Part shown: positions 23,956 to 54,181 of the stretch, piece by piece
Position numbering within the stretch: the stretch's first letter is position 1
Layout: the number at the start of each line of letters is the position of its first letter
IMG/VR virus record: IMGVR_UViG_3300037189_015369
Coordinates: 1 to 64,000 of that record
Reading direction: 5' to 3' (one strand)
DNA length: 64,000 nucleotides
Source of the DNA: a virus
Notes under the pieces: generated by a model
The model's input: only the letters and a program-made list of their open reading frames with translations
The model's database searches: none
What the model was told of the DNA's origin: nothing
Made by a program: the position numbers and the translations under genes

Positions 23956-24009
23956 GCGTTAACTCCCTTGTAACGCGTGGAAAGGGAGCTACTGATACGA
24001 TACAGTAGC
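23956..24009 (-). promoter_or_regulatory. two-state Shine-Dalgarno leader (possible CsrA target)
   Basis: The ribosome site AAGGGAG (23963-23969) can pair with an upstream CTCCCTT (23982-23988), a 7-bp match that extends to 9 bp with one G-U. Alternatively GCGTTA (23971-23976) pairs with TAACGC (23956-23961) and holds the ribosome site in a nine-base loop. The two folds exclude each other. The loop contains AGGGA, which fits the CsrA core ANGGA. A third hairpin, GCTACTG/CAGTAGC (23988-24009), borders the anti-SD. All pairs are exact on the minus strand. Confidence 0.6.
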
Positions 24010-37226: not shown

Positions 37227-39155
37227 TTATGTTGCGCTATAGACGATACCTGTGACGCGCAACACGCCAATTTCTCCGTATACGTTATCTTCTGTGCGTC
37301 CAATCGTGACGAGCACGGTGTCGCCTTCTTCCACAGAAAACTCCGCGCTGTCGCGCTGAATTGCGTGATCGATGAACAAGTTAGCGCTCGAATCAAAAAT
37401 CAGTGGTACGTCGGCTGTTTCCAGCTTTTCACCGTCTGTTGCCGTCGAAGCCGGTTCTGAAAGAATGCGGCGCGTCATATACAGCGACGGCATAACTTTA
37501 CGTGCGCCTAGTGGTGCCGCGCCGCCGTCGCGACCAAATAGCTGCACGCGAATTTTCATCTTTAAGTTATCGCCAATATTGCTTCCGGGCACGTTAAACC
37601 GCAACCGCAATAGCGCTTCTTGCCCGCTCGGAAAACCCAAGTACGGAATATCCATGTACAGGCGCTCAACGGTGTCGCTAAGGCGAATAATTTGCGGTGA
37701 AATTTCGCGTTCAACCAGTTGATCAGTGTAGTCAATTTTCAAAATACCCTGATGCAGGGTAATCGGCGCGGTGGTAGTCAGATCGAACTGTTGCTTTTCG
37801 CTGGTTGTCAAGTTGCGCGGCGCACCACGAGAACCTGTAATTGAAATTTGATTTGATGTGGTAAAGGCACCCTCGGCAATCCAACCGCGCGTTAACTGGT
37901 GCCGATTGATCACACCCTTAATAGCCTGTCCGCCGCTGGCTTCTTCCGCAGCAATTTGCAGATCCAAATTTAACTGTAAGTCGCCAGTCGATGCCGGCAT
38001 ATCTGCGCAGTTTGTAATAGCAATCGGGCTGTTGACCGTGGCAGCAGCTGGTGTTGTTGTCGTGGCAATGTTATTTGACGCAGCAACGTCTTTAACAACA
38101 CTTGTCACTGACTTACGATCGTTGCCGACCAGCATGCGTAGGTAGACCACAGCGAGGCGCAGAGTTTCGTTGCGCGGGCACTCACCTGTCGGCGGCGGAT
38201 CTTCTTCGGTGACTGGGGTTTCCGACCACGGTACGTCTCCCGTGCAATTGCTCATCCACCAAATGCCGTTGGTATCGCAAATTGCCAAGCCATTGCGGCC
38301 GAGCGGGATTTCTGTGGCGCCAACGTGGTCAGCTCCTTTGTCCCAGAGCATGGCCACTGATTGAATCGGCAGGGGCGGCCACACATTAGCCAGCGCTGAA
38401 TGCTGGCTCAGGTTGTAACCAAACAGCGCGCCGTTCGGGGCCTTGCCGTTAAAAACAGAATGACTTGCTGGCAGCCATCCGGGCAACGCTGGGTTTGGGT
38501 TGGTAATAACGCGATGACTTGCGCCGTTATGAACGATTGCGGCTGTCGTACCGGCGGGCTGGGCAACAAGATCAAAACGATAGTGCGTGTGCTCGTCGAT
38601 GAAGTCTCGAATGTGCGGCATAACCACAACGCGCGGCACACTGGAACAGTTATTTTTTGGTCCTTGTACGTGGCAAACGCTAACGGTAACTGCCGGTTTC
38701 TGCCGGACTAGTTTTCCGGGCTCAGCCGACGACAGGTAATAACGCCCCGGCTCAATTGGGCCGTCGATCGCGTTCTGCAAATCCGGCACATTAACAATGC
38801 CGCGCAACACGATATCGCCGAGCGTTTCAGATCGTTTGGTGAGGCAGATCCCGACGCAATCCGACGACGGCTGAACTGCAAGCGCCTGCGTTTCGCTGTT
38901 GGTCGTTACGGCTGCCAGCGCCTTTTCGTAACGATGCTCGACCCAGTTCCAATACACCGGCTGGCCGGGAAGTACGTCTGAGCAAATCGTCGCGCCGTTG
39001 TCTACGAGCGCCTGCCCGAGAGCCGCTGCGTCGAGACGGTCTTTGAGATAGTCAGTGCGGTCCTCTAGCGTACGGTCTGGGCGGGAAACAATGCCCGCTT
39101 GGACCGGCTCGCCGGGATTGACGTGTTTGATATTATGCAGCCAGTTACCGGACAT
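37227..39155 (-). CDS. baseplate/fibre protein, 642 aa
   Basis: The N-terminus (NWLHNIKHVNPGEPVQAGIVS, then LEDRTDYLKDRLDAAALG) resembles the baseplate-binding part of phage tail fibres. HTHYRF near residue 190 is an H-x-H motif as in metal-binding fibre tips. The C-terminal 250 residues are beta rich. GGAGG lies upstream of the ATG. I infer a virion appendage; no exact family match can be made by eye. Confidence 0.7.
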   Translation of the reverse strand: MSGNWLHNIKHVNPGEPVQAGIVSRPDRTLEDRTDYLKDRLDAAALGQALVDNGATICSDVLPGQPVYWNWVEHRYEKALAAVTTNSETQALAVQPSSDCVGICLTKRSETLGDIVLRGIVNVPDLQNAIDGPIEPGRYYLSSAEPGKLVRQKPAVTVSVCHVQGPKNNCSSVPRVVVMPHIRDFIDEHTHYRFDLVAQPAGTTAAIVHNGASHRVITNPNPALPGWLPASHSVFNGKAPNGALFGYNLSQHSALANVWPPLPIQSVAMLWDKGADHVGATEIPLGRNGLAICDTNGIWWMSNCTGDVPWSETPVTEEDPPPTGECPRNETLRLAVVYLRMLVGNDRKSVTSVVKDVAASNNIATTTTPAAATVNSPIAITNCADMPASTGDLQLNLDLQIAAEEASGGQAIKGVINRHQLTRGWIAEGAFTTSNQISITGSRGAPRNLTTSEKQQFDLTTTAPITLHQGILKIDYTDQLVEREISPQIIRLSDTVERLYMDIPYLGFPSGQEALLRLRFNVPGSNIGDNLKMKIRVQLFGRDGGAAPLGARKVMPSLYMTRRILSEPASTATDGEKLETADVPLIFDSSANLFIDHAIQRDSAEFSVEEGDTVLVTIGRTEDNVYGEIGVLRVTGIVYSAT

Positions 39156-53167: not shown

Positions 53168-54181
53168 CTACCCGATCCCGTTCCAAAAACTTGGTTCAAG
53201 CGTCATGGCTTCTAGGGCCTCGACGAGTCTTTGGAATTTGCGTAAATGTGTCGCAGCTAGGCGGCGTGTGACTTCGTGCGCCAGCGCCTTTGAATGAACA
53301 AATTCTCTGGCGGCGGGCAGCGCTGTTTGATTGGGTTTGTCTTTTACCGGTTCAAACTTGATTTCACTCAACTCAGGAATGATAACCAGCGGTTTTTTAT
53401 TTCCGTCATACACGGCTTCCAGCGAGCAAGCCATCCGGTACTCTAACATGCGCAGAAACCATTCGGCTTCTGACAAGATTAAACCGTCGTTTTGATCTAG
53501 GAGCAGCTGCCGCTGAACGAGGAAGTTTTCGTCGGCCAGCATGCTGCGCAGTCGAATCACAAACTTGCCGCCCGCCAGTTCGTAGTCTCTTTTGAACCGA
53601 CCACCACCGAGCAACGTCGTTAAAAAATCTTCCTTATCTTTGTCGGTAACGTTTGTGTCGTACTCCTGCTGCATATCCCAGCCGCAGCGCGGGCAAAACG
53701 GCATGACAATCATCGGCGCTGAAATACCAGCTTCTTCTACCGCGGGCACGTCGGCCGGCGATACAGGCTGTTCCGTTACAGTTGTTTTCGGCTGCCCGGG
53801 TTCAGACGCTGCTGGTGTCGGATCTGCGGTCTCGCGGTCATCGATGATTTCAGCGCTATTTGTGTTAACAAGCTTTTCGTACATATCGCGCACGGAGTCA
53901 GACATGCCGGCGGTGTCTTGGTCTAGTTGCTCTCGCTGCGCGATTTTATTAGCGGTGCCTTTCGCAGCTGCTAGCATTTCTTTGATCTGGCTGACGTCTT
54001 CTTCTTTCATGGCGTCTTTATCAATAAGGACGTCAACACGGGACGACGCCGGCAGACGATCTTTGATCTGCAGCATAAGCTGTCCCAGATCCGCGGGAAT
54101 AGGGTCGTTATTTCGCCAACCGAACTGTTCCAGCGTCTTCTTTGTGAAATCCGAGACGTAGGGATTTTCTACCAACTCCAT
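53168..54181 (-). CDS. tail assembly/virion protein, 337 aa, with zinc motif
   Basis: AAGGAG is upstream of the ATG. The N-terminal 110 residues are helical (FTKKTLEQFGWRNNDPIPAD; EEDVSQIKEMLAAAKGTANK), then an acidic Pro-rich linker, CPRCGWDM (a half zinc finger), and a C-terminal helical part (FVHSKALAHEVTRRLAATHL). The C-terminal end overlaps the 52791-53159 frame. It could be the G-type chaperone, or a separate neck/tail protein. Confidence 0.6.
   Translation of the reverse strand: MELVENPYVSDFTKKTLEQFGWRNNDPIPADLGQLMLQIKDRLPASSRVDVLIDKDAMKEEDVSQIKEMLAAAKGTANKIAQREQLDQDTAGMSDSVRDMYEKLVNTNSAEIIDDRETADPTPAASEPGQPKTTVTEQPVSPADVPAVEEAGISAPMIVMPFCPRCGWDMQQEYDTNVTDKDKEDFLTTLLGGGRFKRDYELAGGKFVIRLRSMLADENFLVQRQLLLDQNDGLILSEAEWFLRMLEYRMACSLEAVYDGNKKPLVIIPELSEIKFEPVKDKPNQTALPAAREFVHSKALAHEVTRRLAATHLRKFQRLVEALEAMTLEPSFWNGIG

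Follow-up and report, generated by a model that had tools for sequence, protein, structure and literature searches.

Proteins of the CsrA family bind ANGGA motifs in hairpin loops, the ANGGAN hexaloop being bound best (PMC7652899), and in the well-described cases of repression by CsrA, RsmA and RsmE, such as hcnA with RsmE and glgC with CsrA, an ANGGA loop of this kind lies over the Shine-Dalgarno (SD) sequence. Phages may also carry csrA (30 out of 2,517; PMC7366521), and knockdown of one phage-borne copy, PTXU04_00028, shrinks plaque size (PMC11879866); the proposals published for such genes are of host manipulation. The phage described here shares with these a csrA gene in its genome (PMC7366521, PMC11879866), and with the bacterial systems it shares ANGGA loops over SDs, ANGGAN hexaloops and a CsrA-family protein encoded nearby. 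It differs from both in that the candidate sites lie at the starts of the phage's own genes, including that of the capsid protein, and would be served by a phage-encoded regulator. The window analysed is a stretch of 64,000 nucleotides from the IMG/VR virus record IMGVR_UViG_3300037189_015369, and the features given below as coordinate ranges are on its minus strand.

The initial annotation had placed a phage csrA 2.7 kb downstream of the leader of a 124-aa protein gene, on the same strand, and this gene was confirmed at 21221-21027. Its 64-aa product matches PF02599 (E 8.6e-20; 70.9 bits against a cut-off of 27), aligns to solved CsrA/RsmE chains and keeps both RNA-contact residues, L4 and R44 (E. 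coli numbering), so that profile match and contact residues together assign it to the CsrA family. Its nearest matches, in Bacillota and Planctomycetota at 38-56%, are not decisive for the host. The 124-aa gene (23955-23581) is the first of the csrA-containing run. Searching with its product retrieved 10 relatives, 69-100% identical and in several cases located on contigs close to 200 kb; all 10 carry csrA, and two distant relatives, L022 and L023, were added through a search with CsrA; csrA lies 1.8-3.4 kb downstream of the 124-aa gene in all of them. The 124-aa protein itself is small and predicted to be helical, has no match in Pfam or PHROG and no assigned function, and its predicted structure (pLDDT 55) is unusable. 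INPHARED, a collection of phage genomes, contains nothing that matches DNA of the window region.

Immediately before the 124-aa gene, a GCGUUA/UAACGC stem closes a nine-base loop that contains A(G/C)GGA and the SD, GCGUUA[CAAGGGAGU]UAACGC (23976-23956), as had been described from the sequence. In DNA form, GCGTTA[CAAGGGAGT]TAACGC, the hairpin is identical in 11 relatives: the stem and the loop CAA(G/C)GGAGT, with its GGAG, are fixed across the leader alignment of close relatives, and only the N of ANGGA varies. In L023, where identity of the 124-aa protein drops to 30%, the hairpin is kept as GCCTTA[CAAGGGAGT]TAAGGC, with a compensatory change of a G-C to a C-G pair, and A(G/C)GGA again lies in a loop overlapping the SD; by our tally, 21 of the last 25 leader bases of L023 match those of the window, a figure equalled by the top pair among 30 other gene pairs of these two phages. 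In L022 the hairpin is absent from the leader. Every cell of the stem alignment is paired, with one two-sided change and the remainder invariant; 71 of 500 shuffles score equally high. The site is not an exact ANGGAN hexaloop, given its 9-nt loop, and larger loops can lower binding by RsmE (PMC7652899); alternatively, it can be read as an AASGGA or ASGGAG hexaloop with one bulged base.

The same SD can also be sequestered, as the initial annotation had pointed out: AGCUCCCUU (23990-23982) pairs with AAGGGAGUU (23969-23961) over 9 bp with one G-U, and a third hairpin, GCUACUG..CAGUAGC (24009-23988), overlaps this anti-SD arm. It had been proposed that the leader is bistable, with the anti-SD and SD-loop folds alternating under the choice of CsrA, a small ligand or an antisense RNA. 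RNAfold recovers all three pairings, and the 91-nt region folds more stably than its shuffles (z -2.23; 4 of 200 shuffles as good). Both folds do appear in the ensemble and are close in energy in the window's lineage, the balance between them shifting with the ends chosen. Folding 24030-23940 gives the anti-SD fold at about 95%, whereas 59-62 nt running from the third hairpin to near the start codon give the SD-loop fold at 75-84% and the anti-SD fold at 16-25%; the former input is longer by 21 bases at the 5' end and by 15 at the 3' end. With 86 nt from the third hairpin, which takes in more coding sequence, most sampled structures are neither fold. Because the winning fold depends on the chosen ends, a two-state leader is thermodynamically possible in the window's lineage.

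Comparison with relatives separates these elements. The anti-SD helix is compensated in L003 and L004 only, is weakened or broken in most other relatives and is absent in L023 although the SD-loop hairpin is kept there; it is 81% paired overall, with covariation not above that of shuffles. The two folds are therefore not conserved together and a switch between them was rejected as a conserved mechanism; nothing pointed to a small ligand or to an antisense RNA as the selector between folds, and the bistable leader as a whole appears highly improbable to us. Covariation in relatives was found for the third hairpin, came down to one compensatory change in the otherwise invariant SD-loop stem, and was not found for the anti-SD helix. 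From these alignments we conclude that selection acts on the SD-loop hairpin and that the anti-SD arm is local variation. The P. aeruginosa psl leader, regulated by RsmA, likewise combines an SD/anti-SD hairpin with a CsrA-family site; unlike it, the leader studied here has its GGA within the SD loop and an anti-SD arm that is not conserved.

The third hairpin has a conserved loop, URUYGUAU, and all of its alignment cells are paired, with five two-sided changes (2 of 500 shuffles score equally high). It probably lies near the 5' end of the mRNA. A promoter-like block, CTAAATTT-N10-CGCGGCATATT (24045-24017), was recognized with fixed spacing from the L022 and L023 sequences and the leader alignment; CGCGGCATATT occurs once in the window, and together with the third hairpin once per contig in 10 of 12 contigs. 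No copies of the leader were found elsewhere in the window. The same intergenic region contains a DUF3800-VIII RNA (RF03075, 47.7 bits; 24211-24137). A search of 12 family contigs finds this RNA in 7 of them as well, L009 and L010 being among those without it; in 9 contigs, including those that carry the RNA, no DUF3800 gene was found. Between the 124-aa and 156-aa genes there is a very long hairpin (23570-23496) of about 30 bp, at -55 to -63 kcal/mol; ten sequences align with both its sequence and its structure preserved, and it is perhaps an RNase III-type processing site. Two collagen-like proteins with GXY repeats, of 300 and 1513 aa, are encoded at 26684-25782 and 31232-26691, near a protein with a Big_1 domain.

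The 124-aa leader belongs to a wider pattern. Gene starts with ANGGA 4-10 nt upstream were counted, a hit being an exact ANGGAN hexaloop on a stem of at least 4 Watson-Crick pairs. Across 11 contigs of the family (1.66 Mb), 58 of the 525 ANGGA ribosome sites lie in such a hexaloop. Shifted registers yield 3.2 on average and 9 at most, and 200 trials with the flanks of the same sites shuffled yield 7.1 on average and 13 at most. The first six contigs gave 39 hits at register zero and 0-7 in shifted registers, and counting by gene family left 24 against 2.0. The unchanged test on about 50 other loci reached through the capsid gene returned 44 of 250 against 1.4, and away from starts ANGGA sites exceeded expectation less strongly (45 of 6,095 against about 12). 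Hexaloops therefore lie over SDs beyond chance throughout the family, and the loop rule agrees with the ANGGAN preference of RsmE and with the SELEX consensus (PMC7652899). The family is large: phages of about 200 kb with a highly conserved capsid protein (56-100%) were found in IMG/VR (L182-L244).

Hairpins of this kind might merely expose the SD to the ribosome without any protein, and indeed the SD is accessible in the loop and its GGAG is conserved. A pure exposure device would not predict dependence on the first loop base, yet loops with a base other than A there show no excess (6 against 6.3), the exact 6-nt register is needed, and hexaloops are absent in phages with the same SDs (T4, 0 of 18; PhiXhv-12, 0 of 21; G048, 0 of 94). 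We regard exposure alone as very unlikely. A Xanthomonas phage with csrA shows, like T4, little or no hexaloop enrichment.

Among the individual targets, three window genes have conserved sites: the 124-aa gene, a GNAT acetyltransferase gene (15610-15170) and a 642-aa gene (start at 39155). The acetyltransferase SD is covered by a GCGGAG hexaloop hairpin (15636-15605), found in 11 of 11 family contigs, with a 13-bp stem in most, and the leader covaries strongly, none of 500 shuffles reaching its score; in 5 of the 11 contigs, the window's lineage included, its loop does not start with A. A tRNA-Thr (UGU) gene lies directly upstream (15717-15645). Over the start codon of the 642-aa gene, GGAC[AAGGAU]GUCC (39163-39150) contains the CsrA SELEX core ACAAGGAUGU; it is identical in 9 contigs and reads GGAC[ACGGAU]GUCC in G009, the free N alone being altered. 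In the capsid gene leader the stems around A(C/T)GGAG change in both arms (GGAAC/GTTCC, AGAAC/GTTCT, AAGAC/GTCTT, GGCAC/GTGCT and CGATC/GATCG), and again 0 of 500 shuffles reach the covariation score. The capsid identity comes from profile matches to the solved major capsid protein 6wkk and a major-head PHROG (E 4.9e-9 and E 2.5e-13), its structure model being poor (pLDDT 50.5; best Foldseek E 3.3e-3). Further targets include an HNH endonuclease, a weakly matched HD-domain-like protein and proteins without assigned function, whereas an SD hairpin at 54181 was rejected as not conserved. Judged by these comparisons, the hairpins are RNA structures under selection.

Phage proteins acting on phage ribosome sites are familiar from T4 RegA and MS2 coat protein, which are unrelated to CsrA and follow different RNA rules. 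By analogy, another phage RNA-binding protein could repress through the hairpins, and the 124-aa protein, small, predicted to be helical and of unassigned function, would be a candidate, although its structure model is of too low quality for a verdict. The loops follow the CsrA rule, and the hairpins occur in many family members before many genes, which makes such a protein extremely unlikely in our estimation.

Which CsrA would act is addressed by the distribution of csrA itself. The sites could be CsrA sites served by the host protein, the phage copy having another job, for example on host mRNAs: CsrA recognition is conserved across bacteria, and host manipulation is a proposed role of phage CsrA (PMC11879866). 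Against this, csrA keeps the same place in all close relatives, hexaloops accompany the phage gene among distant ones, and other csrA-bearing viral loci are little enriched in hexaloops (6 of 251 against 1.8). Among 39 further contigs of the family, many of them incomplete, 17 carry csrA; two distant contigs with csrA retain hexaloops (4 of 21 and 7 of 81, 11 of 102 in total), two contigs of 188 and 192 kb that lack it have none (0 of 38 and 0 of 94, 0 of 132 in total), and two shorter contigs lacking it have 3 of 44 each. This is suggestive of a link between hexaloops and csrA, with ancestry as a confounder, since the 188- and 192-kb contigs are among the most distant members and lineage is thereby confounded with csrA loss. 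On this evidence, we hold the host protein to be an unlikely effector. The leader of csrA itself has no hexaloop over its SD, so autoregulation through that SD was rejected, and no CsrB-like sponge (three hexaloops within 300 nt) was found in six contigs.

The initial annotation was borne out in part: the CsrA-type hairpin that holds the SD shows no change in 11 relatives, is compensated in a twelfth, is always followed by csrA and belongs to a strong genome-wide pattern. We consider it probable, from sequence comparison, that the 124-aa leader is a CsrA-type operator, one of a phage-wide set on the phage's own genes; the regulon itself is the more certain of the two, since its looser loop leaves some doubt whether this leader belongs there. 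We infer that the short stem would present the SD with A(N)GGA in the loop and that the GGA would be bound by a dimer of CsrA, most likely of the one that the phage encodes, in competition with the 30S subunit, blocking initiation and repressing translation in the classic mode. Since the 124-aa gene heads the csrA-containing run, the site may serve negative feedback on the csrA operon, for which coupling and mRNA stability are plausible routes.

Neither CsrA operators nor phage csrA genes are new in themselves; no report of phage-wide CsrA operators on phage genes, or of a phage CsrA that targets phage mRNAs, was found in a search that had most subscription journals outside its reach. The named targets and their mutable 16-nt operators make the question directly testable. 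Contrary to the proposals of host manipulation, the pattern points to a CsrA regulon made up of genes of the phage itself, in which phage CsrA would set the timing or amounts of phage proteins. We lean, if only modestly, towards this CsrA being the phage's own translational master regulator, with operators over many genes, including that of the major capsid protein, that would time or balance virion production.
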